Source: Leifsonia psychrotolerans
GTDB lineage: Bacteria > Actinomycetota > Actinomycetes > Actinomycetales > Microbacteriaceae
Direction of reading: 5' to 3'
DNA length: 64,000 nt
NCBI RefSeq assembly: GCF_013410665.1
Contig: NZ_JACCFM010000001.1
Location: forward strand, 3,348,001 to 3,412,000
The translations under genes and the position numbers were made by a program. The notes below the pieces were generated by a model, which had not been told where the DNA came from, searched no databases, and worked only from the letters and a program-made list of their open reading frames with translations. This document shows, in pieces, positions 1 to 14,787 of this stretch; within the stretch, counting starts at the first letter, position 1, and the number at the start of each line of letters is the position of its first letter.

Positions 1-306
1 GTACGGCTCGCTGAAAACCGCGGCGTATGCCGCGTTGTAAGCGGCGAAATCGCGCTTGAGGTGCTGGAGGTGAGCCGTGGTTTTCACCACATCGTCCATC
101 GTTGCGCCGGCCGCGGTCACGACGGCCTCGATGTTACGCAGCACCTGGGCGGTCTGCTCGGCGACGCCGCCCGCGACGACCTCGCCGGTTGCGGGATCCT
201 GCGGGCCGAAGCCGGCCGTGTAGAGGAAGCCGTTGGCGACGACGCCGTGGCTGTAGGGGCCGGCCGGGGTTGGCGCGTTGGGAATAAGGATGGCCTGCTT
301 GGGCAT
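1..306 (-). CDS. RidA family enamine/imine deaminase (3' end cut by window edge)
   Basis: The 102 visible codons read MPKQAILIPNAPTPAGPYSH at the start, followed by VANGFLYTAGFGPQDP and a VLRNIEAVVTAAG block. This is the N-terminal two thirds of the YjgF/YER057c/UK114 (RidA) fold. The family hydrolyses reactive enamine/imine products of PLP-dependent dehydratases to 2-oxo acids. The catalytic arginine lies near residue 105 in the family, so it falls outside the window and cannot be checked. The gene follows the IclR regulator on the same strand with a 50-bp gap and is probably co-transcribed with it. The nearby fold-type III PLP enzyme (9156-10403) is a natural source of the enamine. RidA is often a housekeeping gene, so the pathway link is inference. 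Confidence 0.88.
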   Translation of the reverse strand, partial: MPKQAILIPNAPTPAGPYSHGVVANGFLYTAGFGPQDPATGEVVAGGVAEQTAQVLRNIEAVVTAAGATMDDVVKTTAHLQHLKRDFAAYNAAYAAVFSEPY

Positions 307-356
307 GTGTGTCCTGTCGGTTGTGGCGGGGTAGGTGATGACGGGTGCGCGGAACG

Positions 357-1091
357 CTAGCCGAGCTGCTGGGAAACGCGGTGGGCTGTGGCGAGAAGCG
401 CGGGAACGAGTGTCTTGAGGGCGTCCAGATCGTTGACCACTCGGATCGAACTGATCGAAATCGCCCCCAGGATGGTGCCGGTTGAGTCGCTCACCGGGGC
501 AGCGATGCAGTTCATGAAATCCTCGAACTCGCCGTCATCGACGCCCCATCCGGTGCGGGCGATCTCGTCCACCTCAGCGTCGAGAGCCTCCCGCGTGGTC
601 AAGGTATTGGGGGTGTGTGCGGTCCAGTCGGTTCCGGCGAGAATGTCGTCACGGCGCGAGGCCGGCAGCATCGACAGGATGGACTTGCCGACGCCGGTGC
701 AGTGGGGCAGCACCGAGCGGCCGATGCGCGAGTACATGCGTACCCCGGCGGTGTCTTCGATTTTGTCGACGTAGACGACGCTGTTGTCGATCAACTGGGC
801 CAGGTGAATCGTGCTGCCCACGCGCTTTTGCAGCTCGCGCAGTTCGTCATGTGCGATGCGGCGCAGGTCGATCTTGTCGAGGGCTTCCTGCCCGATCGCG
901 ATCATGCGGTGTCCGATGTGGTAGCTGCCGTCGGGCCGGTGCACGAGAAAGCCGGCCTGTTCGAGGGTCTGCAGCTGACGAAACACCGTCGAGCGGTGAA
1001 CCTCGAAATGCGCGGCCATCTCGGCCAGCGTGCGCGGCGACTCGGAAATGAACTCGATGATTTCAGTGGCCCGCTTGATGGTCTGCGACAT
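357..1091 (-). CDS. IclR family transcriptional regulator
   Basis: This 244-residue protein has a winged helix-turn-helix at about 5-60 (LAEMAAHFEVHRSTVFRQLQ) and an IclR effector domain at about 75-240, including TGVGKSIL and the late NCIAAPV stretch typical of the family. The length is normal. It is divergent from the kdgK-aldolase-ABC operon, across a 255-bp region packed with TGCAAC/GTTGCA words that are good candidates for its operator. IclR members such as KdgR sense 2-keto-3-deoxygluconate, which fits the KDG kinase and aldolase it faces. The effector here is inferred. The ATG start is followed directly by the wHTH. Confidence 0.93.
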   Translation of the reverse strand: MSQTIKRATEIIEFISESPRTLAEMAAHFEVHRSTVFRQLQTLEQAGFLVHRPDGSYHIGHRMIAIGQEALDKIDLRRIAHDELRELQKRVGSTIHLAQLIDNSVVYVDKIEDTAGVRMYSRIGRSVLPHCTGVGKSILSMLPASRRDDILAGTDWTAHTPNTLTTREALDAEVDEIARTGWGVDDGEFEDFMNCIAAPVSDSTGTILGAISISSIRVVNDLDALKTLVPALLATAHRVSQQLG

Positions 1092-1346
1092 ACGAGCACT
1101 CTATATGCACAATGAAGTGCAGCATGTGCAACTCGAGGAAACCGAGTGGAATGTCGCTATCAGTGCAACATATGCAACGGTCTATGCGGATGTTGCAAAT
1201 TGGGTTTGACATTCTCGCTCTCGGCTCCCTAGTGTGGGGCTGCACCACGAAACGTGCAACGCATGTTGCAAATAATGCAACACGCGCCGGAGGCTAACAC
1301 CGGAGCGCACTCCCTGCACTGAGTGCACGCTGTGAGAGAAGGATCG
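1092..1346. promoter_or_regulatory. Divergent promoter region with a cluster of TGCAAC half-sites
   Basis: Seven TGCAAC/GTTGCA words are seen, starting at 1127, 1164, 1173, 1192 (reverse), 1255, 1265 (reverse) and 1276. Those at 1255-1270 form a perfect inverted repeat TGCAAC-GCAT-GTTGCA. Those at 1265-1281 form GTTGCA-AATAA-TGCAAC. A sigma-70-like promoter for the rightward operon is TTGACA (1206-1211), an 18-bp spacer and TAGTGT (1230-1235). The palindromes lie just downstream of the expected transcription start, a repressing position, while other copies flank the IclR gene start. Binding by the IclR protein is inferred. Confidence 0.7.
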
Positions 1347-2423
1347 ATGCAGACCATGCCACCGCTGAGCTCGCCCCCGGCGAGCGGCGCGCGTGACAGC
1401 GCGACCGCTGCCGCGCTCTGCCTGGGCGAGACCATGGTCATGCTCGGTGCAGACGAAGGCAGCCTGAGCGAGAGCGCCGTCGCCCGCCTCTACGTCGCGG
1501 GTGCCGAGTCCAACGTCGCAACGGGCATCGCGCATCTCGGTCACCACGTCGAGTGGTTCAGTCGCCTCGGCGACGACCCCTTCGGTGAACGCATCCGGTC
1601 GTCCCTTGGCAACCGCGGGGTCGACACCCGTCGCGTGATCGTCGATCCCGACCATGGTACGGGTATCTACTTCAAGGATTGGTCGAGCGGCGAGAGCTCG
1701 GTCTACTACTATCGTTCAGATTCGGCGGCGGCGCAGCTGAGCCTGGCCGACTTTGCAGGCCTCGAGTTGTCGACGCGTCGTCTCTGCCATCTCTCCGGAA
1801 TCACCCCGGCACTCTCGCCCAGCTGTGACGCGGCGATGGGGGAGCTGCTGCTCACCCGGGAGCGCGGCGACACCGTGATCAGCTTCGATGTCAACCATCG
1901 CGCGCAGCTCTGGTCTGCCGAGGTCGCCGCCCCGCGCATGCTCGAGCTCGCTCGGGGAGCCGACATCGTGATCGTGGGCCGCGACGAAGCCGAGACGTTG
2001 TGGGGCACCGCGACCGCCGAGGCGATTCGCGAGCTGTTTGCGGATGCGCCGCTCCTGGTCGTCAAGGATTCCGACATCGGAGCGACGAGCTTCATCGGCA
2101 GCGAGAGCTACTTCGTTCCGGCACTGCGCGTCGAGGTGGTCGAGCCGATCGGTGCCGGCGATGCGTTCGCGGCGGGCTTCCTCTCTGCCTGGCTCGACGA
2201 CGAGGACCCGGTGAGCTGCCTGCGCCTCGGCCACGTCATGGCCGCGCACGTTCTGAGAAGCCTCGGCGATACGCCTCAGCTTCCGCCCCGCGCGGAGCTC
2301 CTGGCACTGGCCCGTCTCGACGAGCGGAGCTGGCGTGACCTGCACCTGACCCGCCCGCGGGTCGACGCAGTGTCCCCCGACCGAACCTCGCCGCTCCTCG
2401 TCAGCGAAGGAATCGCACTGTGA
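1347..2423 (+). CDS. kdgK: PfkB-family sugar kinase, probable 2-keto-3-deoxygluconate kinase
   Basis: This is a 358-residue ribokinase-fold kinase. The start at 1347 is chosen because GAGAAGG sits just upstream; an in-frame ATG at 1323 lacks a good ribosome site. The N-terminal substrate region reads GAESNVATGIAHLGHHVEWF and FSRLGDDPFGERI, as in KdgK. The PfkB signature IGAGDAFAAGF places the anion hole and catalytic base at G269-A270-G271-D272. It should phosphorylate KDG or a close relative at O6, feeding the aldolase encoded next, whose GTG start overlaps this stop (GTGA). It is the first gene of the rightward operon, under the IclR-type control region. Confidence 0.88.
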   Translation: MQTMPPLSSPPASGARDSATAAALCLGETMVMLGADEGSLSESAVARLYVAGAESNVATGIAHLGHHVEWFSRLGDDPFGERIRSSLGNRGVDTRRVIVDPDHGTGIYFKDWSSGESSVYYYRSDSAAAQLSLADFAGLELSTRRLCHLSGITPALSPSCDAAMGELLLTRERGDTVISFDVNHRAQLWSAEVAAPRMLELARGADIVIVGRDEAETLWGTATAEAIRELFADAPLLVVKDSDIGATSFIGSESYFVPALRVEVVEPIGAGDAFAAGFLSAWLDDEDPVSCLRLGHVMAAHVLRSLGDTPQLPPRAELLALARLDERSWRDLHLTRPRVDAVSPDRTSPLLVSEGIAL

Positions 2424-3052
2424 GCATCACCACCGACACCCTGTTCGCCGGTTCGCCCGTCATGGCGATCTTCCGAAACATGACCCCCACACACGCGACC
2501 ACGCTGGCACACCGGGCCTGGGACCTCGGCATCGAACTGGTCGAGGTGCCCATCCAGACCAGTGACGCCCTGCCCACACTGCGTGCCGTGGTCGCTGCCG
2601 GCCGCGAGCGAGGCAAAGTCGTCGGGTCCGGCACCGTCATCTCCCTCGAACAACTGGAGGCGAGCCGCGCTGCCGGTGTCGGCTTCACCGTCTCACCAGG
2701 CCTGGACGAGGCCGTCGTGGCAGAGTCGGCCCGGATCAATCTTCCCCACCTGCCCGGCGTCGCAACGGCATCCGAAATTCAGCGGGCCCTTGCCCTGGGC
2801 TGTACCTGGGTCAAGGCGTTCCCCGCCAGCGTGCTCGGCGCCACCTGGTTCACGACACTGCGCGGACCGTTCCCGCAGGTGAAGTTTGTGGCGACCGGAG
2901 GAATGGACGCGTCCAACGCGGCGGCCTTCCTTGACGCGGGCGTTTCGATGGTGGCGGTCGGCTCCGCGCTTGCCGATCCCGCCCAGGTCGATCTTCTTGC
3001 ACACCTCATCGCACAACGCAGAGCGAACGGGGGTTCTGAACCCCGCTCGTAG
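2420..3052 (+). CDS. Class I KDPG/KDPGal-type aldolase
   Basis: The 210-residue protein has the compact TIM barrel of the Eda/DgoA family. The Schiff-base lysine is in TWVKAFPAS (K132), E42 begins EVPIQT, and the phosphate-binding loop is VATGGMDASNAAAFLDAG. It cleaves a 2-keto-3-deoxy-6-phospho sugar acid to pyruvate and glyceraldehyde 3-phosphate. The usual Eda motif EVTLRT is replaced by EVPIQT, so the arginine that contacts the keto-acid carboxylate is missing. This resembles the EIPLNS type of DgoA, so a galacto-configured substrate cannot be excluded. The GTG start overlaps the kinase stop, implying translational coupling. Confidence 0.88.
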   Translation: MSITTDTLFAGSPVMAIFRNMTPTHATTLAHRAWDLGIELVEVPIQTSDALPTLRAVVAAGRERGKVVGSGTVISLEQLEASRAAGVGFTVSPGLDEAVVAESARINLPHLPGVATASEIQRALALGCTWVKAFPASVLGATWFTTLRGPFPQVKFVATGGMDASNAAAFLDAGVSMVAVGSALADPAQVDLLAHLIAQRRANGGSEPRS

Positions 3053-3136
3053 AGAGCTCCATCACTTCGCACTGCACCGCGCAGCGCGAGCGTTGCACAA
3101 CCAATCCCCCTCTTAGGCAAGCTCCAAAGGAGAAGC

Positions 3137-4192
3137 ATGTTTTCACGTGTTCGCAAGACCCTCGCCATCGGCGCGGCAGCAGCAATCGTCCTCACTCTCG
3201 GTGCCTGTAGCGCCGATGCGTCAGCGGAGGCAGACGGCCCGGCCACGGCCGGCGTCGCCGAGAACCTCAAGGTCGGCTGGTCGACCATCTACCTCAGCCC
3301 GTCCTGGATGCAGCAGACCGAAAAGCTCCTCAACGAGGAAGCCGGCCGTCTGAAGGACCAGGGCATCGTCGCTTCGATCGAGACGCTCAACGCCAATGGC
3401 GACACCTCGCAGCAGATCGCCCAGATCCGCACCATGATTCAGCAGAAGTACGACATCATCCTCGTCGATGCCGGCTCCTCGACCGCGCTGAACCCGGTCA
3501 TGGAAGATGCCATCGAGGAGGGCATCACCGTGGTCAACTTCGACTCGCTCGTCACGAGCGACAAGGTCACCAAGGTGGGCACCGATCAGGGCAAGTGGGG
3601 TGGCATGCTCGCCCAGTGGCTCGTGGACGAACTCGATGGCAAGGGAGACATCATTGCCTTCAACGGCCCCGCCGGTGTTGCAGTGAGCGAAGACCGTTGG
3701 GCGGGAGCCAAGGCGGTGTTCGACAAGAACCCCGACATCAAAATCGTGACGACCCTCAACAGCGAGTACAACATCGCGCCGGCCGCGCAGGCATTCGCAT
3801 CCGCCTACGCTGCAAACCCGGACATCGACGGTGTCTTCGCCCAGGGCGGTGCACTCGGCCTGGCCGCACTGCAGACGCTCATCAAGCGTGACGCCCCGAT
3901 GATCCCGATCACCGGTGAGAACTACAACGGATTCCTTAAGGCGTGGAGCGACAACATTCCCAACGGCTTCTCGTCGATGTCGACCGCTCAGCCCAACTGG
4001 ATGAGCGCCGTCGCGTTGCGTGCCGCCGTCGCGATCAAGCAGGGCAAGGACATCCCGAAGTGGATCGAGATTCCGCTGCCCGAGATCACCAACGATAACC
4101 TGACCGAGTTCGTGAAGACCGGTGAGCCGGACGACTCGTACCCGATCAACGAGTTCAGTGACGCAGACATCAAGGCGTTGCTCGGCCTCTAG
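3137..4192 (+). CDS. Sugar ABC transporter substrate-binding lipoprotein (RbsB/Peripla_BP_4 type)
   Basis: A 351-residue secreted lipoprotein. The signal peptide ends in the lipobox LGAC, with the modified cysteine at 24. A two-lobed type I periplasmic-binding fold follows, with motifs such as QIRTMIQQKYDIILVDAGS and a late TGENYNGFLKAW. AAAGGAG precedes the ATG. The gene opens the importer block (binding protein, double ATPase, two permeases) and lies 84 bp after the aldolase. It should capture the pathway substrate outside the membrane. The ligand is unknown; the enzymes around it point to an amino-sugar acid or its acyl form. A strong hairpin follows 12 bp after the stop. Confidence 0.92.
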   Translation: MFSRVRKTLAIGAAAAIVLTLGACSADASAEADGPATAGVAENLKVGWSTIYLSPSWMQQTEKLLNEEAGRLKDQGIVASIETLNANGDTSQQIAQIRTMIQQKYDIILVDAGSSTALNPVMEDAIEEGITVVNFDSLVTSDKVTKVGTDQGKWGGMLAQWLVDELDGKGDIIAFNGPAGVAVSEDRWAGAKAVFDKNPDIKIVTTLNSEYNIAPAAQAFASAYAANPDIDGVFAQGGALGLAALQTLIKRDAPMIPITGENYNGFLKAWSDNIPNGFSSMSTAQPNWMSAVALRAAVAIKQGKDIPKWIEIPLPEITNDNLTEFVKTGEPDDSYPINEFSDADIKALLGL

Positions 4193-4203
4193 GGCGTCGC
4201 TGT

Positions 4204-4232
4204 GGGCGCCAGGCAGTTTCTGCCTGGCGCCC
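4204..4232 (+). terminator. Intercistronic hairpin after the binding-protein gene
   Basis: A perfect 13-bp stem (GGGCGCCAGGCAG paired with CTGCCTGGCGCCC) closes a TTT loop. No long T tract follows, and the ATPase gene continues the operon. It more probably acts as a partial terminator or mRNA 3' stabiliser that keeps binding-protein levels above the rest of the operon. Confidence 0.75.
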
Positions 4233-4293
4233 CTTCGCCTTTCCGTTTCACCGTCACCGTATCGGCCTTGGCCGACGAGCAAAGGAGCCGCAC

Positions 4294-5835
4294 ATGGTGG
4301 CCGAAGAACCGAGAACCGAACCGCTGCTGCGCACCGATGCGGTCTCAAAGAGCTACGTGGGCATCGAGGTGCTGCACGAGGTGAGCCTTGACATCAAACG
4401 CGGCGAGGTGCTCGGCCTCGTGGGCGAGAACGGTGCGGGAAAGAGCACAATTCTCTCGCTTATCACCGGTATGACCGCGCCGAGCTCCGGAACGATCCAC
4501 TATGACGGTCGGCAGATCGCAACCACCTGGTCGCCCAAGCAGGCCCGACTGGTCGGTATCGGTGCGGTGCACCAAGAGCTGAGCCTCAACCCGCACCAGA
4601 CCGTGGCCGAAAACGTGTTCCTGGGCAACTGGCCCGTGCGTCGGGGCGTGGCCACCCAGCGCAGCCTCGAGAAGGCGGCCCAGCCGTTTCTCGACGAGGT
4701 CGGTCTCACCGTCTCGCCCGCCGACACCGTCGCCACGCTCACGCTGGGCGAAATGCAGCTGCTCGAACTGGCTAAGGCCCTCGTCTCGAAGCCGACGCTG
4801 CTGATCCTCGACGAGGTCACGTCCGCGCTGGATGACAGCCAGGTCGAGAACGTCTTCCGTGTCGTTCGGCGGCTCTGCGCCGAGGGTGGCGCCGTGGTCA
4901 TCGTGACGCACCGCATGAGCGAACTCTTCGCCATCTGCGACAGGCTCACGGTGTTGAAGGACGGCGCCTACGTCGCCACGCGCGCGCGTGCCGAGACCAC
5001 AGAAGATGACATCGTTCAGCTCATGCTCGGTCGCGCTCTCTCCGCCATCTTTCCCCCCAAATCAGCGGATGCCGCGGCCGGCGTCGCGCCGCTCCTTCGG
5101 GTTCGCGACCTGAGCGTTCCCCGTGCCGTGCACGGGGTCAGCTTCGAACTGCGCCCCGGCACCATCACGGGTCTGGGCGGGCTGCAGGGCCAGGGACAGA
5201 GTGAGGTTCTGCGTGCCCTCTTCGGACTCGCCGCGCATACCGGCCAGATCGAGTTCGACGGCAAGCCCGTCACCATCTCGGCCCCCCGCCACGCCATCAG
5301 CAACCGCATCATCTACGTGCCGGAGGACCGCAAGGTCGAGGGCGTCGACGTGGGATTGTCGGTCGCCGCCAACCTGCAGCTGCCCAATATTCCGCTCCTC
5401 GCGCCGCTGCGCCGCCTGGGCACCGTCAACCGCCGTGCCGGCCGCGACCTGGTCGCCGAGATGATCGCGAAGCTGCAGATCAAGGCTCGCCCGACGCAGG
5501 AGGTGCGCCGTCTCTCGGGCGGAAACCAGCAGAAGGTTGCGCTCGCCAAATGGCTGCCCACCGAACCCCGTGTCTTGCTGCTGGCCGAACCCACCCGCGG
5601 TATCGACGTCGGCACCAAGCGCGAGATCTACCGGCTGTTGCGTCAGTTCGCAGATGACGGCCTGGCGATTCTCGTCACCTCGGGCGACACGCTTGAACTC
5701 ATCGGTCTCTGCGATGAGATCGCCGTCATGTACGAGGGCCGCATCGTCGAGCGGCTGCAAGGCGAAAAAATCACCGAGGAAGCGCTTGTGCATGCCTCCG
5801 TCATCGTCAAGGAGAGTGAACCCGATGTCGCTTGA
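4294..5835 (+). CDS. Sugar ABC transporter ATP-binding protein (RbsA-type, two ATPase domains)
   Basis: 513 residues with two ABC domains. Domain 1 has Walker A GENGAGKST (44-52), Walker B LLILDEVTSALD and a degenerate signature TLGEMQLLELAKAL. Domain 2 has the degenerate Walker A usual for RbsA (GLQGQGQSE) but a full LSGGNQQKVALAKW signature. Its Walker B reads VLLLAEPTRGID: the magnesium-binding Asp is Ala431, whereas the second RbsA-type protein in this window keeps Asp. Domain 2 is probably catalytically dead and domain 1 drives transport. AAAGGAG precedes the ATG. The 3' end overlaps the permease start by 11 bp. Confidence 0.93.
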   Translation: MVAEEPRTEPLLRTDAVSKSYVGIEVLHEVSLDIKRGEVLGLVGENGAGKSTILSLITGMTAPSSGTIHYDGRQIATTWSPKQARLVGIGAVHQELSLNPHQTVAENVFLGNWPVRRGVATQRSLEKAAQPFLDEVGLTVSPADTVATLTLGEMQLLELAKALVSKPTLLILDEVTSALDDSQVENVFRVVRRLCAEGGAVVIVTHRMSELFAICDRLTVLKDGAYVATRARAETTEDDIVQLMLGRALSAIFPPKSADAAAGVAPLLRVRDLSVPRAVHGVSFELRPGTITGLGGLQGQGQSEVLRALFGLAAHTGQIEFDGKPVTISAPRHAISNRIIYVPEDRKVEGVDVGLSVAANLQLPNIPLLAPLRRLGTVNRRAGRDLVAEMIAKLQIKARPTQEVRRLSGGNQQKVALAKWLPTEPRVLLLAEPTRGIDVGTKREIYRLLRQFADDGLAILVTSGDTLELIGLCDEIAVMYEGRIVERLQGEKITEEALVHASVIVKESEPDVA

Positions 5836-6850
5836 CCTCGCCACGAAGCCTGCGCCTTCGGCCCAGACCGGGTCGGCCGCGGCGCCCGTCGGGCTGCTTC
5901 GACGCGTGACAGACGTGATCTTCCAACGCAGCGCCGAACTCGTCGGCATCAGCCTGCTTCTGTTGGTGCTGCTCTCGCTCTACGCCCTCTACGACCAGAG
6001 CCTGTTCACCGGCAAATCGATCATCATGCTGTCGGCCCAGTTCTTGCCGCTGATCATCGCGTCGATGGCGCAGGCAATCGTGATGCTCACGGGCGGTATC
6101 GACCTGTCGATCGGTGCCGTGCTCTCGCTCGTCATGTCGATCTTCGCGGTTCTCGCGGGCACCGGAGTCGGCGTGGTCGGCGCGATTCTGATCGCGCTCT
6201 CGGTCGGAATGTTGGTCGGGTTGTTGAACGGGGCGCTTGTCGCATTCGCCCGGCTCCCTCCGATCATCGTCACGCTCGCCGCCTCATTCCTCTGGTCCGG
6301 GGTGACGCTTGTGATTCTTCCGCAGCCCGGCGGACTGATTCCCGCAGACCTGATCCGCGCGTACAACAAGGGTTGGAACGGCCTGGCCCTCGGCGTCGTC
6401 GCGCTCATCATCGTGCTCGCTCTGTGGAAGTACATCGCGCGGTCGCGTTTTGGTCTCTCGATCTATGCGGTCGGGGGCAATGAGCACGGCGCGTTCGCCA
6501 GCGGGATCCGGGTTCGTTCGGTCACACTGTGGGCCTACGGGCTCAGCGGACTGTTCACCGGTATCGCGGGCATCGCGTTGACGATTCAGACGGGAACCGG
6601 CGACGCTAACCTGGGCGTGCCGTACACGCTCAACACGATCGCCGCGTCGATTCTGGGCGGCGTGAGCTTTTTGGGCGGAATCGGGCGGATGCGTGGGGTC
6701 GTCATGGGCGCACTCGTCGTGGCGATCCTGCCGATTCTGTTGCTCTTCATCGGCGTCTCGCCGTTTTACCAGCTCGTGGTGCAGGGTGGCGTTCTCATCA
6801 TCGCCTTCGCCTCCAAGTACGTCCTCACCCGTGGAAAGCAGGCGGTCTAG
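5825..6850 (+). CDS. Sugar ABC transporter permease (RbsC-type)
   Basis: 341 residues with a cytoplasmic N terminus of about 35 residues followed by roughly ten hydrophobic segments. The family motif GGIDLSIGAVLSLVMS follows MAQAIVMLT, and FARLPPIIVTLAASFLWSG is the usual BPD_transp_2 stretch. The ATG at 5825 overlaps the ATPase stop and is the only start that does not add unrelated upstream sequence. It forms the membrane channel with the next gene, giving a heterodimeric permease. Confidence 0.92.
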   Translation: MSLDLATKPAPSAQTGSAAAPVGLLRRVTDVIFQRSAELVGISLLLLVLLSLYALYDQSLFTGKSIIMLSAQFLPLIIASMAQAIVMLTGGIDLSIGAVLSLVMSIFAVLAGTGVGVVGAILIALSVGMLVGLLNGALVAFARLPPIIVTLAASFLWSGVTLVILPQPGGLIPADLIRAYNKGWNGLALGVVALIIVLALWKYIARSRFGLSIYAVGGNEHGAFASGIRVRSVTLWAYGLSGLFTGIAGIALTIQTGTGDANLGVPYTLNTIAASILGGVSFLGGIGRMRGVVMGALVVAILPILLLFIGVSPFYQLVVQGGVLIIAFASKYVLTRGKQAV

Positions 6851-7912
6851 ATGTCTGAAACCAGCACACTCACCCCGGATGCCGCCCGGCTCGGTGCCAG
6901 CGCTCCCGGCGGCGGCGCTCCCCACGGCAGCGACCCCCACGACGACGGGCCTCGCCCGGCAGCGCGGTCAGGTCTCAGCGTCGGCGTGCGTTCCGCGCTC
7001 GGCAGCCGTGCCGTGCTGTCGTTCATCGCTCTCGCTGCACTCTGGCTGATCGCCGTGCTCGTCTCGCCCTCGTTCGGCGCGCCGGCCACGACCCAGTATC
7101 TGCTGCAGACGGCGGCGTTCCTCGGGATCATCGCGCTCGGTCAGACCCTCGTGATCATCATGGGCGGCATCGACCTCTCGGTCTCGGGTGTCGTCGCGCT
7201 CTCCGCTGTCGTCTGTGCCCAGATCGCCGAGGCGGGCGGGCCGGTCGCCGGCGTGATCGTCGCGCTGATCGCCTGCGCGGTGGTCGGAACCTTCAACGGC
7301 GCCGGGGTCATCTTTCTGGGCATCCCACCGATCGTGATGACTCTCGCGAGCGGTACGATCCTCACCGGTGTGCTGCTGATCTACACGAACGGCAGCCCCC
7401 GCTCGGCCGATATTCCGCTTCTTCGCGTGATTGCCAACGATTCCATCGCCGGCATTCCGTGGGCGTTCCTGGTCTGGTTGGCTTTCGCCGCACTCACTCT
7501 CTGGCTGCTGCACGGGTCGGGAATGGGCCGCTACGCCTTCGCCGCGGGCAGCAGCGCGACGGCTTCCCGGGCGGCCGGCGTGCCGATGCGAGCAACCACC
7601 CTGACCATGTACACCGCCTGCGCCGTTCTCGCGGGCGTCTCGGGGCTCGTCTTGCTCGGCTTCACCGGAACCAGCTCGCTCACCATGGGCAGCCCCTATC
7701 AGTTGCTCTCAATCGCCGCGGTGGTGCTCGGGGGAACCTCCATCCTGGGCGGTCGCGGCCACCTGCTCGGCACCGTCTCGGGTGCGTTGCTGCTCACGCT
7801 GCTCACGTCGTTGCTCAGCGCCTGGGACTTCTCGGAGGCGTGGCGCCGCGTCGCACTCGGCGCTCTCATCCTGGTGCTGCTGCTGTTCTACTCCCGCGAA
7901 TCAAAACGATGA
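6851..7912 (+). CDS. Sugar ABC transporter permease (RbsC-type), second subunit
   Basis: 353 residues, starting at the base after the preceding stop codon. An Ala/Gly/Pro-rich cytoplasmic N terminus (about 40 residues) is followed by some ten membrane segments. The signature GGIDLSVSGVVALSAVV and IFLGIPPIVMTLASG identify the BPD_transp_2 family. The tail ends in RESKR. It is a paralogue of the upstream permease. The stop codon overlaps the start of the M20 hydrolase gene (ATGA), which ties that enzyme to the transport operon. Confidence 0.92.
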   Translation: MSETSTLTPDAARLGASAPGGGAPHGSDPHDDGPRPAARSGLSVGVRSALGSRAVLSFIALAALWLIAVLVSPSFGAPATTQYLLQTAAFLGIIALGQTLVIIMGGIDLSVSGVVALSAVVCAQIAEAGGPVAGVIVALIACAVVGTFNGAGVIFLGIPPIVMTLASGTILTGVLLIYTNGSPRSADIPLLRVIANDSIAGIPWAFLVWLAFAALTLWLLHGSGMGRYAFAAGSSATASRAAGVPMRATTLTMYTACAVLAGVSGLVLLGFTGTSSLTMGSPYQLLSIAAVVLGGTSILGGRGHLLGTVSGALLLTLLTSLLSAWDFSEAWRRVALGALILVLLLFYSRESKR

Positions 7913-9159
7913 CGCCCCACGCGGATGCCGTGGCCTCGGTTCACTCCGAGACGGCGATCGACCTGGTGCTGGCCGAGCTCGTCACGATTTCGAGTGTGAC
8001 TCCCCGAGACGAGGCGCCCTGCGCCGACCGGCCCGGTGAGCAGGCGCTCGCCGAGTACGTCGTCGACTGGTTGAGCGCGCGCGGGGTGACCGCGGCGTTG
8101 CAGGAGGCGCTGCCCGGTCGGCCCAACGTCGTCGCCTCTGTCGCCGGGGCGAGCGAGCGGGCCGTGCTGCTGGAAACGCATCTCGACACCGTCGAGGTCG
8201 ACGGAATGACGCAGCCGTTTCTGCCCCGCGTGGCGAACGATCGGCTGTACGGCCGCGGTTCCGCAGACGCGAAGGCCTCGCTCGCCGCATTCATGGTCGC
8301 CCTCGCCCGGCTGGCCGCTTCATCGTGCCCCCCGCCCGTGACCGTCGTGCTCGCCGCCGTCGCCGACGAGGAGCACGCCTACCGTGGTGTTCTGGCCTTT
8401 CTCGCGGCCGCGGGCGACACCGATTTTGTCGGGGCCATCGTCGGCGAACCCACGAGCTTGGTTCCCGGCATCGCGCACACCGGCTGCGTGCGAGCGACCG
8501 TGCGCATCAGCGGGGTCTCCGGCCACAGTTCACGCCCAGCTGACGCGATGAACGCGATCGGTCTCGCGGCGACCGTGGTGCAGCGCATTGAATCGGTGCA
8601 GCCGCTGGCCCCGCGGCATCCGCTGCTGGGAACGGGCAGCAGAACCGTCACCCGCATCGCGTCCGGTGAGGGGCCCAACGTGGTGCCCGGCAGCTGTGAA
8701 CTCGACGTGGATCGCAGAACCGTGCCCGGGGAAGAGCCCGAGACCGTGCTCGATGAGCTGCGCGCGGAGCTCGATCGCGAGCTTCCTGGCCGTGTCACAA
8801 TCGACCCACCGTTCACCGTTGACTATTCCCTCGACACCCCACTGGATGCCACAATCGTGACGGCCCTTCGGAGCGCCCTGCGCACCGCCGGTCTCGCCGC
8901 GGAGCCGAGCGGCATGCCCTTCGGCACGGATGCGAGCAAGATAGCCCGCGTCGGCATTCCCGCCGTCGTCTTCGGCCCCGGAGACATCGCCGATGCGCAC
9001 ACGATCGACGAGTCCGTCGATCTCGGCGAGGTGCGACTGGCCGTCGACCTGGTGCTGGCCACCATCGCCGCACTCGCCCCCGGTGCCGACAATGACAGCA
9101 CGGCGCACGACAGCACGGCGCACGACGGCACAGCTCACGAGAACAACGAGGAATCATGA
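7909..9159 (+). CDS. M20 family metallo-amidohydrolase/deacylase (ArgE/DapE type)
   Basis: 416 residues with di-zinc ligands in the M20 pattern: H91 in ETHLDTVEVDG, D120 in GRGSADAKA, the E154-E155 pair in VADEEHAYRG, and H364 in DIADAHTIDES. A lid/dimerisation domain occupies about 180-290. Family members remove an N-acyl group (acetyl, succinyl) from an amino acid or cleave a dipeptide. The ATGA overlap with the permease gene and the GTCATG overlap with the PLP enzyme gene suggest it acts just after import, releasing the free amine for the PLP enzyme. The tail after about residue 395 is a short Asp/Thr/His/Ala repeat (SxAHD-like units) of low complexity. Substrate is inferred from context only. 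Confidence 0.87.
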   Translation: MTPHADAVASVHSETAIDLVLAELVTISSVTPRDEAPCADRPGEQALAEYVVDWLSARGVTAALQEALPGRPNVVASVAGASERAVLLETHLDTVEVDGMTQPFLPRVANDRLYGRGSADAKASLAAFMVALARLAASSCPPPVTVVLAAVADEEHAYRGVLAFLAAAGDTDFVGAIVGEPTSLVPGIAHTGCVRATVRISGVSGHSSRPADAMNAIGLAATVVQRIESVQPLAPRHPLLGTGSRTVTRIASGEGPNVVPGSCELDVDRRTVPGEEPETVLDELRAELDRELPGRVTIDPPFTVDYSLDTPLDATIVTALRSALRTAGLAAEPSGMPFGTDASKIARVGIPAVVFGPGDIADAHTIDESVDLGEVRLAVDLVLATIAALAPGADNDSTAHDSTAHDGTAHENNEES

Positions 9160-10403
9160 CCAGCACCCCGCACATCGACTGGCACGAGAAGGCCATCTGG
9201 CCCGGTCTCACCGAAGAAACGGTCGACGACTATCTGGCCGCCGGGCATTCGCTGTTCGACGGCAGCCTCACCTGGCCCGCCATGATCGTGCGTGAGGCGG
9301 CGCTCGCCGCCAATGTCGAGACCCTCGCGGCGTTCTGCCGTCGGCACGGCCTCGACTTCGCGCCGCACGGCAAGACCAGCATGGCGCCCGCACTCTTCCA
9401 CCGGCAGCTCGACGCGGGGGCCTGGGGTATCACTCTGGCGACGGCGCAGCAGGTGCGGGTCGCCTGGGGACACGGCGTGACGCGGGTGTTGCTCGCCAAC
9501 GAGATCCTCGACCCGGTCGCCCTCGACGCGATTGCCCAGCTGCTCATCGAAGACTCGTCTCGAGAATTTCTCTGCCTGGTCGACTCCGCTGAGGGTGTGC
9601 GCGTCATCGCGGAAGCCGGCGCGCGGCACCCTCTGCTTGCCGACGGCCTCTCGGTGCTCGTCGACCTCGGCTGGACCGGGGGACGCACCGGCGTACGTGG
9701 CGCCGACGCAGCGCTCGCGCTGGCCCACGTCGTGGCCGCGACCCCCGAGATCCGTTTGGCCGGCGTCTCGAGTTATGAAGGCGGCTTGAAGACCACGGAT
9801 GCCGTGCGCGGCTACTTCACCGAGGTGCGCGCCGTCGTCGACGGAATCGCCCGGGCCGGGCTGGTGAGCGGGCGCATGGTCGTGACAGCCGGCGGCAGCG
9901 CCTACTTCGACCTCGTCGCCTCGGAGCTCGCGGGCTCGTGGGCGACGGAACACGGGCTGCAGCTGATTCTGCGCAGCGGCGCGTATGCCAGCCATGACGA
10001 CGGCGTCTACGTGGGCAAGACCGGATTCAACCGCATTCCCGAGGAGGGCCACCTCGAGGCCGCACTCGAGATCTGGGCGCAGGTGATTTCGGCCCCAGAA
10101 CCCGGGCTGGCGATCGTGGGGATGGGCAAACGTGATGCGCCCTACGACGAGGGGATGCCGATCCCGCTCGCGCTGCGCCGCGCGGGTTCGACCGAGCTTG
10201 AGCCGATTCGGGGCCGCGCCGAGGTTCCGGGAATGGACGATCAGCACGGCTACCTGCGCCTGAACTCGGGCCTCGAGCTGCGCCCTGGCGACCTCGTCTG
10301 CTTCGGTATTTCGCATCCGTGTACGGCGTTCGATAAGTGGCGCGTCGTGCCCGTGCTGGATGCAGACGACCGCATCGTCGACCTGTTCACCTGCTACTTT
10401 TAG
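9156..10403 (+). CDS. Fold-type III PLP enzyme, D-serine dehydratase / D-threonine aldolase-like
   Basis: 415 residues with an N-terminal alanine-racemase-like barrel. The PLP lysine is K73 in FAPHGKTSMAPAL. The C-terminal D-serine-dehydratase-like beta domain carries H387-P-C389 in CFGISHPCTAFDKW, the His-x-Cys pair that binds zinc in eukaryotic D-serine dehydratase. Such enzymes eliminate water and ammonia from, or retro-aldol cleave, beta-hydroxy-D-amino acids. D-glucosaminate-type acids are exactly that: 2-amino, 3-hydroxy. Elimination would give KDG, the substrate of the kinase encoded in the same operon. D-threonine or D-serine catabolism is an alternative. The start codon overlaps the M20 stop. 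Confidence 0.87.
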   Translation: MTSTPHIDWHEKAIWPGLTEETVDDYLAAGHSLFDGSLTWPAMIVREAALAANVETLAAFCRRHGLDFAPHGKTSMAPALFHRQLDAGAWGITLATAQQVRVAWGHGVTRVLLANEILDPVALDAIAQLLIEDSSREFLCLVDSAEGVRVIAEAGARHPLLADGLSVLVDLGWTGGRTGVRGADAALALAHVVAATPEIRLAGVSSYEGGLKTTDAVRGYFTEVRAVVDGIARAGLVSGRMVVTAGGSAYFDLVASELAGSWATEHGLQLILRSGAYASHDDGVYVGKTGFNRIPEEGHLEAALEIWAQVISAPEPGLAIVGMGKRDAPYDEGMPIPLALRRAGSTELEPIRGRAEVPGMDDQHGYLRLNSGLELRPGDLVCFGISHPCTAFDKWRVVPVLDADDRIVDLFTCYF

Positions 10404-10410
10404 GAACCCC

Positions 10411-11691
10411 ATGAGCGCACTTTTTGCTTCTGTCGAAGATCTTCTGGGTGAGGGCGTCGACACTGTCGCGCGTCGTGCCGCCGAGTGGGGCTGCACCGAG
10501 CTGGCCGTCTCGTTCGCCTATCACGCGGCGCGGGACGTCACTCCGCATGGCCCGCGCCGGGTGACGGTGCGGCGCGACGGCGTGAGCTTTGTGCCCGCCG
10601 CCGACGCGTTCACCGGCAGTGGCTTGGTGCCGGCCGTGCTGCAGCACGATGCCGACTTCGGACCCGCGACGCTCGGCGGTGCGGCGGCGCACGGGGTCGG
10701 CGTCGTGGGGTGGGCCGTGTTCCTGCACAACGAGGAGCTCGGGCTGCGGCATCCGGAGACCACCCAGCTCAGCTGTTTCGGCGACCGGGCGGCCCCGGCC
10801 GATCTCTGCCCCGCCAACCCCCGCGTGCGCGAGTACTGCGTCGAATTGGCGCTCGCCGTGGCCGGTCTCGGAGTGAGGGAAGTGATCGCTGAATCGTTGC
10901 ATTTCGGCGCCTTCGGCCACGGCTATCACCATGAGCGCGACTTCGTCGGGTTGGGAGCGCTCGAGCAGTTTTTGCTCGGGCTGTGCTTTTGCGGCTACTG
11001 CGTCAAGGCGGCGACGGATGTCGGGGTCGACGTCTCCGCAGCACGCACGAGTGCCGTTCGATTGGTTGAGCGCCCGTTCGACGGCATCGAGGCGCGGCTC
11101 GGCGACACCGCACTGACGCCACAGCTGCTCGCTGAAGCGGGCGGAATCGAACTGCACAACTTTGCGCTCGCGCGGTCGGCCACGGTGACCAGCCTGGTCG
11201 CGGAGGTGGCCGCAGCACTCGCTGCGCGCGGCGTACGGTTGACCTTTCTCGACCTGATGGGTGCGATGCAGGGCTACGGCGACGGGCTGCCGGGCCCAGC
11301 GTCGGGGCTCGACGAGGGGTGGCAACTCGGTATCGACATTCCTGCCATTGCCGCGCACTCCGGGGTGGGGATTCTCGCCTACGCGCAGGACGCCGAGCGG
11401 GTGGCGGACGAGACGGCCCGGTATCGAGCGGTGCTCGATACGGCAGACGATGCGGAAGACGAGGTGTCAGCCGAGGCGACGGGCGATGCGGCAGACGACG
11501 CACGGATGCTGCGGGTGCTGTTGCGGCCGGGCAACCCGGACTGTTCTGACGAGGCCAACCTGGCGGCGAAGGCGGCGGTGGCACAGGCTGCCGGAGCCGA
11601 TTCGGTTGACTTCTACCACTACGGGTTATTGCCGTTTCGGGTGCTCGACCGAGTGCGGGGCGCGCTGGTGGGGCGGCGACGGTCCGCATGA
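10411..11691 (+). CDS. Unrecognised TIM-barrel-like protein with a CFCGYC motif
   Basis: 426 residues, ATG chosen 7 bp after the upstream stop. I cannot assign it to a named family. The sequence alternates strands and helices like a (beta/alpha)8 barrel. It has a LGVREVIAESLHFGAFGHGY stretch (about 153-172) and further histidines, then C192-F-C194-G-Y-C197, a possible metal or disulfide site. An acidic DxLMGAMQGYGDGLPGP segment follows at about 280. Similar 'CFCxxC' patterns occur in unclassified glycoside-hydrolase-like barrels, so hydrolysis of a sugar derivative is one guess. No signal peptide is seen, so it should be cytoplasmic. The GC-rich 3' end overlaps the MBL gene (ATGA). About residues 345-375 are an acidic low-complexity loop. 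Confidence 0.75.
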   Translation: MSALFASVEDLLGEGVDTVARRAAEWGCTELAVSFAYHAARDVTPHGPRRVTVRRDGVSFVPAADAFTGSGLVPAVLQHDADFGPATLGGAAAHGVGVVGWAVFLHNEELGLRHPETTQLSCFGDRAAPADLCPANPRVREYCVELALAVAGLGVREVIAESLHFGAFGHGYHHERDFVGLGALEQFLLGLCFCGYCVKAATDVGVDVSAARTSAVRLVERPFDGIEARLGDTALTPQLLAEAGGIELHNFALARSATVTSLVAEVAAALAARGVRLTFLDLMGAMQGYGDGLPGPASGLDEGWQLGIDIPAIAAHSGVGILAYAQDAERVADETARYRAVLDTADDAEDEVSAEATGDAADDARMLRVLLRPGNPDCSDEANLAAKAAVAQAAGADSVDFYHYGLLPFRVLDRVRGALVGRRRSA

Positions 11692-12467
11692 GCGCGATCA
11701 CGCTGCGTCCCGGGGTGCATCTGGTGGGCAGCGGCGCGGCGGGTTTCGACCTGAGCGATGCGCTTGACTGCCATGTCTATCTCATCGAAGGCACCACGGG
11801 CTGGGCCGTCATCGACGCGGGCAGCGGCAACGATTCGGCGCGCATCGTCGCGAGCATCCGCTCGGTTGCTGCCGCGCGGGGGCTCGACCTGACTCAGCCG
11901 GGAACGCTGCTGCTCACGCACGGCCATGCCGACCATTCGGGGGGCACGGCCGACCTGCTCGCCGCCTTTCCCACCCTGACGGCCTACGCGGGCGCTGCCG
12001 CGGCCGAGTGGGTGTCGCGTGGCGATCTGCAGGGCATCAGCCTCGACCGGGGCAAGGCCAGCGGCGCGTACCCCGCGGACTACGCGTACGGCGGTGCTGC
12101 CCCGGTACTGCCGCTTGCAGGGGGCGAAACGAGGGGGTTCGGGGGGCGCAGCATCCGTGTCATTGCCGCACCGGGCCACGCGCGCGGACACCTCTGTTTT
12201 CTGCTGCAGGATAATGCGCCCGGTCCGGGCTCGGCACGGATTCTGTTCTCGGGCGATTGCGTCTTCACTCGCGGGCGAATCTCACTGCAGAATCTGCACG
12301 ACGTTGACATTCCCGCCTACGCGAACACGCTCGCGGTGCTCGACGGGCTGAACATCGATGCGCTTCTGCCCGGCCACTATTCCGTGTCGCTGTCGAATGC
12401 CGCACGTCATATTCGCATCGCGCACGACGCATTTCAGGCCGGATCGGTGCCGCCGAACGCACCCTGA
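11688..12467 (+). CDS. MBL-fold metallo-hydrolase
   Basis: 259 residues with the metallo-beta-lactamase metal motif LLTHGHADHSGG (H78, H80, D82, H83), then APGHARGHLCFLL, the bridging Asp in FSGDCVF, and the final His in LLPGHYSVSL. This is a glyoxalase II-like di-metal hydrolase, possibly a lactonase or thioesterase. As the last gene of the operon it could open a sugar lactone before deacylation; that is inference. It ends 14 bp before the convergent kynU. Confidence 0.88.
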   Translation: MSAITLRPGVHLVGSGAAGFDLSDALDCHVYLIEGTTGWAVIDAGSGNDSARIVASIRSVAAARGLDLTQPGTLLLTHGHADHSGGTADLLAAFPTLTAYAGAAAAEWVSRGDLQGISLDRGKASGAYPADYAYGGAAPVLPLAGGETRGFGGRSIRVIAAPGHARGHLCFLLQDNAPGPGSARILFSGDCVFTRGRISLQNLHDVDIPAYANTLAVLDGLNIDALLPGHYSVSLSNAARHIRIAHDAFQAGSVPPNAP

Positions 12468-12481
12468 CGCTGGTCTCGCGA

Positions 12482-13876
12482 TCACTGCTGTGGCGCGAGG
12501 CCCGACTGCTTCAGCAGGATGCCGCGCAGTGTCTCGCGCACGGCACGCATGCCCTCGTAGGTTTCAACGAAGCTGGTCGACAGAGGGGAGAGGCCGATGC
12601 GCAGGCCTTCCGGCGCGCGAAAGTCGGGAATCACATTCTGCTGCCAGAGCAGAGCCGTGACCTCGCGCATCGCCGGATGGTTGAGTGTGACATGTCCGCC
12701 GCGACGGCCGGCCTCACGGGGCGACGCGACGGTGACGCCCCACGGCGCCAGCCATTCGTCGGCGAGTGCGATCGTGAAGTCGGTCAACGCGACCGATTTT
12801 GCCCTGATCCGATCGATGCCGGCCTCAGCGATCATGCCGATGGTGTCCTGCATGGCCAACATTCCGAGGATCGCAGGGGTGCCGCTCATGAACCGACGGA
12901 TGCCCGTGGCCGGCTGGTACCCCGGGCCCATCAGAAAGATGTCGGTGGTGCCCATCCAGCCCTGAATAGGCTGGGCGAGCCGTTCCTGCAGGTCGGCACG
13001 AACGTAGCCGAACGCGGGGGATCCCGGGCCGCCGTTCAGATACTTGTAGGTGCAGCCGGCGGCGAGGTCGACACCGGCGGCGTCGAGCTCGACGGGCACC
13101 GAACCGACCGAGTGGGAGAGATCCCAGAGCACGAGTGCGCCGGCGTCGTGGGCGATGCGGGTGATCGCGGCCAGGTCGGCCACGAAACCCGACCGGTAGG
13201 CGACGTGGCTGAGCAGCAGAAGCGCGGTGTTCTCGTCGACGGCGTGGGCGACCTGCTCCGCAGTGACGCCGGCGGTGGTGTCGGCTTCGATCCAGCGCAG
13301 GGTCAGCCCACGCTCGGCGGCGATGCCCTCGAGAATGTAGCGGTCGGTCGGAAAGTTGTCGGTGTCGAGCACGAGGGTGGTGCGGCCGGGCTGCGCGTCG
13401 ACCGCGGCGCGCGCCAGTTTGTACAGCACGACGGTCGTCGAGTCACCGATGAACGTCTGGCCGGCTGCGGCGCCGAGTGCGGCGGCGGCCAGGTCGTCGC
13501 CGATCGTCAGGGGGAGCTCCATCCACTGCTCATCCCAGCCGCGGATGAGTCGTGCGCCCCAGGTATGTTCGATGAAATCGGCGATGCGTGTGGCGCTGGC
13601 GCGGGTGGGTCGACCGAGGGAATTGCCATCGAGATAGACGACGGAGGCGGCAGTGGCCGGTGCCGTGCCCGTGCCCGTGACGGTGTCGGTATCGGGGTCT
13701 GCGTCGGCAGCGGTGCTGTCGTTTCGCGTCGGCACGTCATCGAGGCCGAGGAAGCGGCTCCGGTAGTGGGCGAGGCCGTCGATCCGATCCATGCGTCGGG
13801 CAAAATCCAGGTGCGGGTCCCGGTGCGGTGCTTCGGAAGCGGAAGTTGAGGGGGAGAGGGGACTGCCAGTGGTCAT
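12482..13876 (-). CDS. kynU: Kynureninase
   Basis: 464 residues, aspartate-aminotransferase fold. The PLP lysine is K278 in GCTYKYLNGGPGSP, the family signature. VLDTDNFPTDRYILEGIA and WDLSHSVGSVPVELD are also typical. It cleaves L-kynurenine to anthranilate and alanine. The ATG at 13876 overlaps the upstream amidohydrolase stop (ATGA), and so is preferred over an upstream in-frame start. A low-complexity Asp/Thr/Ala stretch (about residues 45-70) is an unusual insertion near the N terminus. It is the last gene of the kynA operon, and anthranilate can feed tryptophan recycling or further degradation. Confidence 0.95.
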   Translation of the reverse strand: MTTGSPLSPSTSASEAPHRDPHLDFARRMDRIDGLAHYRSRFLGLDDVPTRNDSTAADADPDTDTVTGTGTAPATAASVVYLDGNSLGRPTRASATRIADFIEHTWGARLIRGWDEQWMELPLTIGDDLAAAALGAAAGQTFIGDSTTVVLYKLARAAVDAQPGRTTLVLDTDNFPTDRYILEGIAAERGLTLRWIEADTTAGVTAEQVAHAVDENTALLLLSHVAYRSGFVADLAAITRIAHDAGALVLWDLSHSVGSVPVELDAAGVDLAAGCTYKYLNGGPGSPAFGYVRADLQERLAQPIQGWMGTTDIFLMGPGYQPATGIRRFMSGTPAILGMLAMQDTIGMIAEAGIDRIRAKSVALTDFTIALADEWLAPWGVTVASPREAGRRGGHVTLNHPAMREVTALLWQQNVIPDFRAPEGLRIGLSPLSTSFVETYEGMRAVRETLRGILLKQSGLAPQQ

Positions 13877-14787
13877 CGAAGTGCCTCCAGTTCGGCGGGG
13901 GTTACGGCGCGTGCGGTGCACAGCCAGTCGACAAATGCGCGGCGGTCGTGCGGCTGCGAACCGGGAATGAGCGTGACCGAACCTGTCTCGGCCACGGGCC
14001 TGGTCGAAACGCTCCCGTGTGCGTGGGCCAACCGGCCGGTGAGCGCGCGGAGCACATCATCGGCGGAGAAGCCGGCTGTCATCAGCGCCTCGATTTCACG
14101 GTGATTCAGGCCGACGGGCAGCGGGCCATTCCCCAGGTCGGTGCCGTACAGCACCCGGCCGCCCCGCGCGTGGAATCGGCGCACATTGTCGACAGCACGC
14201 TCGAATTCGGGGCCGTACTCACCCCAGCCATGAATGTCGAGGGTGCTGATCCAGGTGATTGAGCCGGCCATCGCCGCGAGTTCGACGTCGGAGAGGCGCT
14301 CGCTGAACGGGGCGTGGGCGAGCACGTCGACGCCGGCGGCGAACGCACGTGTCGCCTGGCCGCTGCCCTCGGTGTGGGCGACAACGGGTAGCCCGTGGGC
14401 GTGGGCGCGGGCGAGGATCGCGTCGAGCACGTCGGTGGACAAGACGGGACCGGCGAGTGAGTTCAGCGTGACTTTGATCACGGATGCGCCGGCCGCGACC
14501 TGCCGGTCGACGGCAGCGGCGGCATCCGTCGGCGTCGAAACCGCGCAGACGCTGCTCGGCGGAGTCCAGGACTGTCGGCTTGGGTAGCCGCCCGGGGCGG
14601 TGAGGAACTGGCCGGCACAGTCGATCTCAATGTCGATGTCGATGATGCGCTCAGGGCGGCCCGTGTCGGGGAGCCAGCCGCCGAGGTCGACGACTCGCGC
14701 AATGCCCGCAGACCTCAGCGCGGTGGCGTCGAACAACGCCAGATGCACATGGGCGTCTTGGAAGCCGGGCAGAACGGTATGGGTCAT
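13873..14787 (-). CDS. Short amidohydrolase-superfamily protein in the kynurenine formamidase position
   Basis: 304 residues. It starts almost at the first metal motif, LPGFQDAHVHL (HxH at about 13-15), so it lacks the N-terminal half of the beta-sandwich found in ~400-residue relatives. Then come a lysine in SVIKVTL, metal His in VVAHTEG and VLAHAPF, and the catalytic Asp in LYGTDLGNG. The start is fixed by ATGA overlap with kynA and the stop by ATGA overlap with kynU. The pathway needs N-formylkynurenine hydrolysis between those two enzymes, and no KynB-type cyclase-fold or alpha/beta-hydrolase formamidase is encoded here. I infer that this gene supplies the step, which would be a non-standard formamidase. 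It could instead be an imidazolonepropionase-like enzyme of another role. Confidence 0.8.
   Translation of the reverse strand: MTHTVLPGFQDAHVHLALFDATALRSAGIARVVDLGGWLPDTGRPERIIDIDIEIDCAGQFLTAPGGYPSRQSWTPPSSVCAVSTPTDAAAAVDRQVAAGASVIKVTLNSLAGPVLSTDVLDAILARAHAHGLPVVAHTEGSGQATRAFAAGVDVLAHAPFSERLSDVELAAMAGSITWISTLDIHGWGEYGPEFERAVDNVRRFHARGGRVLYGTDLGNGPLPVGLNHREIEALMTAGFSADDVLRALTGRLAHAHGSVSTRPVAETGSVTLIPGSQPHDRRAFVDWLCTARAVTPAELEALR

Follow-up and report, generated by a model that had tools for sequence, protein, structure and literature searches.

A Leifsonia psychrotolerans operon proposed to import and degrade an N-acylated 2-amino-2-deoxy-hexonate

A proposed route for an oxidised amino sugar

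The stretch analysed here (the window) comprises 64,000 nucleotides of Leifsonia psychrotolerans (RefSeq assembly GCF_013410665.1, contig NZ_JACCFM010000001.1, hereafter C1, positions 3,348,001 to 3,412,000), and it opens with an operon of ten rightward genes. It is proposed, with moderate confidence, that this operon and a probably co-regulated D-aminoacylase gene import and degrade an N-acylated 2-amino-2-deoxy-hexonate. The protein families, the gene order, its recurrence in relatives, the metal ligands of one enzyme and a shared palindrome were read directly from the sequences, and from these we infer every substrate and reaction. An ATP-binding cassette (ABC) importer would take up the precursor, which would be N-deacylated by the D-aminoacylase and perhaps by an M20 amidohydrolase too. 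A fold-type III pyridoxal 5′-phosphate (PLP) enzyme would then dehydrate and deaminate the product to a 2-keto-3-deoxy-hexonate, with RidA clearing the enamine/imine, after which a PfkB kinase would phosphorylate this acid and an Eda-type aldolase would cleave it to pyruvate and glyceraldehyde 3-phosphate. An IclR regulator would control the pathway. Furthermore, the ABC importer, the M20 enzyme, an uncharacterised barrel protein (TIMb) and a metallo-beta-lactamase (MBL) fold hydrolase would form an add-on feeder module bringing in and trimming the precursor.

A sequence-only reading of the window had already placed the PLP enzyme ahead of the kinase and the aldolase, with RidA and IclR in attendance, and this core idea has a direct precedent, because a route through OngB, OngC, KdgK and RidA has been published for Pseudoalteromonas. 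As stated in excerpts of Jiang et al. 2022 (PMC9537276), OngB deacetylates N-acetylglucosaminate (GlcNAc1A), OngC, a fold-III PLP enzyme, converts glucosaminate to 2-keto-3-deoxygluconate (KDG) and ammonia, KDG is phosphorylated by KdgK, and RidA (OngD) is essential. The cluster of Pseudoalteromonas CF6-2 (L173), with its gene content as described there, was used as a yardstick, and the window PLP enzyme was 36% identical to the protein at the OngC position over 398 aa (223 bits). Its best PDB relative was 3gwq ("D-serine deaminase", 278 bits), while D-threonine aldolases and BhcC reached at most 100 bits. In an alignment and tree of 92 rows, comprising the window enzyme and 91 loci (94 had a match, but the sequences of L099, L100 and L107 were too short to include), residues K73, H387 and C389 were invariant, and all 92 rows had Cys, not Asp, at the second ligand position. 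H387 and C389 were assigned as metal ligands by comparison with PMC4401734, an excerpt of which gives His and Cys for D-serine dehydratase and His and Asp for D-threonine aldolase. These invariant His/Cys ligands therefore favour a dehydratase-type reaction over aldol cleavage, and the enzyme is proposed, on sequence grounds, to be a 2-amino-2-deoxyaldonate dehydratase/deaminase. Overall, homology, gene context and the OngC precedent supported the core of the earlier scheme, but not its M20 deacylase, its chitin setting or a D-gluco specificity.

The core genes recur in relatives. A PLP relative (E≤1e−30) was encoded in 95 of the 299 genomes of the host's family, and 20 regions were taken from 19 of these genomes, mostly top matches; PfkB and Eda genes were present in 13 of the 20 regions, 12 of which also had a D-aminoacylase. 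The closest gene-for-gene match was found in one genus (L115-L119), with identities of 54-56% for the kinase, 64-70% for the aldolase and 57-59% for the PLP enzyme, and with RidA (85-86%) and IclR (67-69%) in L115-L118, both being absent from L119, a short contig. A D-aminoacylase was present in these regions except L116. Moreover, M20, MBL, IclR, PLP, Eda, PfkB, RidA and TIMb genes appeared together in all seven Thermomonosporaceae loci with M20, so the gene set is not a chance neighbourhood.

Operon layout

The gene inventory given by the sequence-only reading was borne out, as all genes were found at their positions with clear Pfam assignments, apart from its TIM-barrel-like protein (TIMb). 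The RidA and IclR genes (leftward) are divergent from the ten rightward genes, the last of which ends at 12467. The features are as follows (bit scores refer to NCBIfam models unless PDB is named):

1..306, minus strand: RidA family protein, N-terminal part (PF01042); the window edge cuts the gene, which is complete at C1:3347920-3348306 (128 aa)
357..1091, minus strand: IclR-type regulator (PF01614, PF09339); best model KdgR, 147.7 bits, cut-off 275
1118..1327, no strand: candidate operator region with four TGCA-N5-TGCA palindromes, at 1118, 1164, 1267 and 1315
1323..2423, plus strand: PfkB sugar kinase, KDG/2-keto-3-deoxygalactonate (KDGal) kinase-like (PF00294); GTG start, uncertain
2420..3052, plus strand: aldolase of the 2-keto-3-deoxy-6-phosphogluconate (KDPG)/2-keto-4-hydroxyglutarate (KHG) type, Eda family (PF01081); TIGR01182, 144.3 bits, cut-off 156
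3137..4192, plus strand: Rbs-type (CUT2) substrate-binding protein (PF13407); 84% identical to the L034 copy
4294..5835, plus strand: ABC sugar transporter ATPase (PF00005, two stretches)
5825..6850, plus strand: ABC permease 1 (PF02653); ATG at 5825, GTG at 5816 possible
6851..7912, plus strand: ABC permease 2 (PF02653)
7909..9159, plus strand: M20 amidohydrolase, ArgE/DapE-like (PF01546, PF07687); TIGR01892, 201.8 bits, cut-off 297.7
9156..10403, plus strand: fold-type III PLP enzyme, D-serine-dehydratase-like (PF14031)
10411..11691, plus strand: TIMb, uncharacterised actinobacterial protein, predicted glycoside-hydrolase-like barrel (no Pfam match; structure model)
11688..12467, plus strand: MBL-fold hydrolase, possible lactonase or esterase (PF00753; weak PDB matches)

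The genes overlap at the PfkB/Eda, ATPase/permease 1, permease 2/M20, M20/PLP and TIMb/MBL junctions, the two permease genes abut, and 7 bases separate PLP from TIMb. The sole larger gaps, of 84 and 101 bases, flank the binding-protein gene. Beyond the operon, the next genes (12482-15638, minus strand) encode a kynureninase, an amidohydrolase and a tryptophan 2,3-dioxygenase, a leftward tryptophan-degradation operon in which the amidohydrolase may, as a guess, stand in for a formamidase.

A candidate operator shared with a distant D-aminoacylase gene

The D-aminoacylase (OngB superfamily) is encoded about 16 kb from the operon (open reading frame C1:3329908-3331497, L177:8909-10498; match C1:3329938-3331494). 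With the D-aminoacylase encoded close to the PLP cluster in another genome of the same genus (L131) it shared 70% identity, and its gene lies beside genes that, in a related genus, border the entire cluster. The gap between the IclR and PfkB genes holds four of the window's 6 TGCA-N5-TGCA palindromes, whereas 0.82 were expected in 64 kb and none of 100 shuffles reached 6. In particular, the 13-mer TGCAACATATGCA appeared twice in the 3.82 Mb genome, once before the operon (C1:3349164, window position 1164) and once some 50 bases upstream of the D-aminoacylase gene (C1:3329848), and it was also present in L118. Similar sites were found in promoter gaps of L115-L119, L034, L131, L133, L164 and five of seven Streptomyces clusters. 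Promoter zones, making up 2.6% of the bases, held 21 of 63 sites, a count in which related loci are treated as independent, three of the L046 copies overlap and the zones were defined after the pattern was known; many of the remaining sites fall within MBL or RidA coding sequence. Genome-wide, the loose pattern occurred 114 times vs. 84 for the reversed control; the loose pattern alone is therefore weak, and the case depends on the exact 13-mer together with the promoter enrichment. The 13-mer TGCAACATATGCA is a candidate IclR operator, and the D-aminoacylase gene probably belongs to the same regulon as the operon.

Points against the route and alternative readings

Several observations weigh against the proposed route. 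The kinase, the aldolase and the regulator all scored under their NCBIfam cut-offs, and the kinase (25%) and RidA (27%) showed a weak likeness to their ong counterparts in L173. For the nearest PLP relative (L114, 68%), 17 kb of sequence contained no tracked partner gene. OngC also deaminates D-Ser and D-Thr, according to an excerpt of PMC9537276, and an excerpt of PMC12017989 states that OngB specificity depends on Ser292 and Gln298. The corresponding loop of the host's own D-aminoacylase, YPYTRGCTLLAMPLLPP, is without this signature, which appeared in one of 71 D-aminoacylase loci scanned (Cupriavidus, L134) and was lacking in 69 actinobacterial loci and Comamonas, while the Pseudoalteromonas control loop kept both residues; the scan was a pattern match, not a structural comparison. 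Finally, on Pantoea and Klebsiella plasmids (L136, L172) the PLP relatives have RidA, IclR and an ABC importer for polar amino acids as neighbours, a kinase or aldolase annotation being absent, and these members of the enzyme family may act on D-amino acids. As a separate observation, L134, on a megaplasmid of the betaproteobacterium Cupriavidus metallidurans CH34, holds an ong-like core of GntP-like, RidA, D-aminoacylase (with the Ser/Gln signature), PLP, kinase and aldolase genes.

The presence of a D-aminoacylase in relatives was considered as proof of GlcNAc1A as the substrate and rejected on the loops. The D-gluco configuration is unproven because the OngB signature is missing from the actinobacterial D-aminoacylases, the host's own included, and acetyl as the acyl group is not certain. 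The same route might act on another configuration, such as galactosaminate via KDGal and a 2-keto-3-deoxy-6-phosphogalactonate (KDPGal) aldolase, which we consider somewhat unlikely. Besides the missing signature, the best kinase models, at 155-161 bits and under their cut-offs, were those of bifunctional KDG/KDGal kinases, and the aldolase matched the KDPGal aldolase model with 112.5 bits; however, it scored higher against TIGR01182 (KDPG/KHG), and sequence does not settle the configuration.

The second alternative concerns the deacylase. The sequence-only reading had given N-deacylation to the M20 enzyme, and it could be that M20 replaces the D-aminoacylase (OngB), the operon alone being the whole route. 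This is unlikely, even though its gene overlaps the PLP gene by four bases, is linked with PLP, Eda and PfkB in all seven Thermomonosporaceae M20 loci and scores best against the model of acetylornithine deacetylase, an N-deacetylase. Whole-genome searches found a D-aminoacylase in 15 of the 17 genomes with an M20 or ABC-TIMb locus, the host included (G691 and G306 being the misses), and the host's D-aminoacylase gene shares the 13-mer with the operon. Moreover, both enzymes stand in one operon in Actinoallomurus soli (L182) and Actinomadura chibensis (L183), with the same-strand order D-aminoacylase, binding protein, ATPase, two permeases, M20, MBL, IclR, PLP, Eda, PfkB, RidA and TIMb. Four more Thermomonosporaceae genomes had the D-aminoacylase in a second PLP cluster (L164, L184, L185, L186), and in A. 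spadix the locus took the form D-aminoacylase-PLP-RidA-TIMb, its PLP enzyme sharing 94.5% identity with the A. soli one. ArgE/DapE-type enzymes also prefer L-configured residues, which speaks against this alternative. M20 is thus probably not the sole N-deacylase of the pathway. An apparent mutual exclusion of the two enzymes in 80 TIMb loci (M20 in 15, D-aminoacylase in 42, both in none) was an artefact of 10 kb flanks, overturned by wider regions and the genome search.

Least probable, and in our view quite unlikely, is a pathway for plain N-acyl-D-amino acids (D-Ser, D-Thr) with the kinase and aldolase serving another use: the Pantoea and Klebsiella neighbourhoods, the D-Ser and D-Thr activity of OngC and the 40 of 80 TIMb loci whose fetched DNA has D-aminoacylase and PLP genes but lacks the kinase-aldolase pair agree with it, yet these two enzymes, needless for D-Ser and D-Thr, are linked in the window, in the 13 of 20 host-family PLP regions and in the seven Thermomonosporaceae loci, and the importer is of sugar type, with a gluconate-type symporter in some relatives.

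The feeder module and its possible substrate

The proposed route for an N-acylated hexosaminate leaves TIMb and MBL to be placed, to which the sequence-only reading had assigned no role. TIMb had no Pfam or NCBIfam match and no PDB sequence match at E≤1, and the barrel named in that reading was backed by structure prediction, the model (mean predicted local distance difference test, pLDDT, 83.8) having the same predicted barrel fold as GH42/GH20/GH153-type glycoside hydrolases. Homologues numbered 345 at E≤0.001 among 7996 scored candidates, and the 120 of these 345 that were listed carried no Pfam domain and names at most "hypothetical" or "alanine-rich". Across 19 rows, E161 (end of the fourth predicted strand), C192/C194/C197, D281 and D377 were invariant, with no invariant Glu on the seventh strand. 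TIMb is accordingly described here as an uncharacterised actinobacterial family with a predicted glycoside-hydrolase-like fold. The PDB sequence matches of MBL were weak and mixed, falling on several MBL hydrolases, among them lactonases. A beta-propeller lactonase gene directly follows PLP in all five regions L115-L119 (PF10282, Pfam tested on L116 only), which suggests a lactone step and is for MBL a hint only.

The neighbourhoods of TIMb were scanned in the best 80 of 240 matches, with the 10 kb flanks mentioned above. PLP was found in 59 loci, RidA in 50, MBL in 15, and M20 and D-aminoacylase in the numbers already given; the 11 loci without any tracked pathway or importer gene were L049, L055, L057, L058, L059, L063, L066, L072, L078, L088 and L098. 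In eight Streptomyces loci M20, MBL, IclR and TIMb occurred and PLP was absent; the ABC genes accompanied them in seven, and L046 gave no more than a weak ATPase match on the opposite strand. Seven of these eight genomes carry a PLP gene at another place, always with D-aminoacylase, kinase and IclR, and with a gluconate-type symporter in five of the seven clusters, the other two ending at contig edges. Similarly, L034 had IclR, TIMb and the importer (its binding protein being the 84% identical copy), no M20 or PLP, and a separate core cluster (L163) in the same genome. The patterns of the Streptomyces, L034 and Thermomonosporaceae loci therefore indicate that TIMb links the feeder module to the core.

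Among 396 genomes sampled from the order, the binding protein had no match at E≤1e−60 in any of the 395 besides the host's, and TIMb was present in six of the 299 genomes of the host's family, the host included; the feeder block is therefore rare in the lineage. Horizontal gain of the block is plausible, and base composition in 1 kb steps showed no sharp insert boundary.

Tentatively, as a possible rather than probable extension, the feeder module may be dedicated to a conjugated oxidised amino sugar, for instance one conjugated as a glycosyl-aldonate or through a second amide, part of it entering as lactone. In that case TIMb would represent a new cytosolic glycosidase-like family, M20 would cut another amide than the D-aminoacylase, and the freed N-acyl-hexosaminate would enter the ong-type core. 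If true, this would be a second, actinobacterial way to scavenge oxidised amino sugars, and the proposal gives TIMb its first testable role.

The chitin-oxidation setting of the sequence-only reading was not supported. The genome search gave no matches to LPMO_10, the sole LPMO family searched, none to GH18, and one GH20 gene, outside the operon, and a chitin-degrading lifestyle was rejected on these counts. Scavenging of the free compound is therefore likelier than chitin oxidation.

Comparison with known systems

According to the excerpted survey in PMC9537276, the complete pathway for oxidised-chitin sugars occurs in Gammaproteobacteria and one Achromobacter. Among the open-licence papers listed by literature searches, none was seen from its title or abstract opening to describe an actinobacterial, ABC-fed or M20-bearing version. 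If the proposal is true, oxidised amino sugars would be a wider nutrient than thought, given the similar core in the host's family, Tsukamurella, Streptomyces and Thermomonosporaceae, the sugar or sugar-acid importers and the palindrome common to core and feeder genes. By analogy, the chemical steps are most likely those of the marine oxidised-chitin bacteria, but the importer differs and three enzymes (M20, TIMb and MBL) are added.

Like the ong cluster of Pseudoalteromonas, the operon has a fold-III PLP deaminase, RidA and a sugar kinase, whereas its D-aminoacylase lies elsewhere in the genome. The ong cluster has a sodium symporter, RpiR, GH20 and a TonB receptor; the operon has an ABC importer and IclR and none of the others, a Pfam domain search finding no GH20 hexosaminidase, SSS symporter or RpiR regulator in it. 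Unlike the ong cluster, it adds M20, MBL and TIMb and carries the aldolase within the operon. As in the ong pathway, deamination is proposed ahead of phosphorylation; another route that also ends in a 2-keto-3-deoxy-6-phospho acid phosphorylates first and uses a different PLP family.

Within the D-serine dehydratase/D-threonine aldolase family, the window enzyme shares PF14031 and the His/Cys ligands of the dehydratase, and it is closer to the OngC-position protein (34-36%) and 3gwq (41%) than to D-threonine aldolase (30%) or BhcC (24%). Finally, Tsukamurella-type clusters (e.g. L135) have RidA, IclR, kinase, PLP enzyme and aldolase in common with the operon; they hold the D-aminoacylase and an annotated gluconate symporter in the cluster, the latter found by similarity also in two host-family loci besides the Streptomyces clusters, and no M20, TIMb, MBL or Rbs-type importer in the region fetched.

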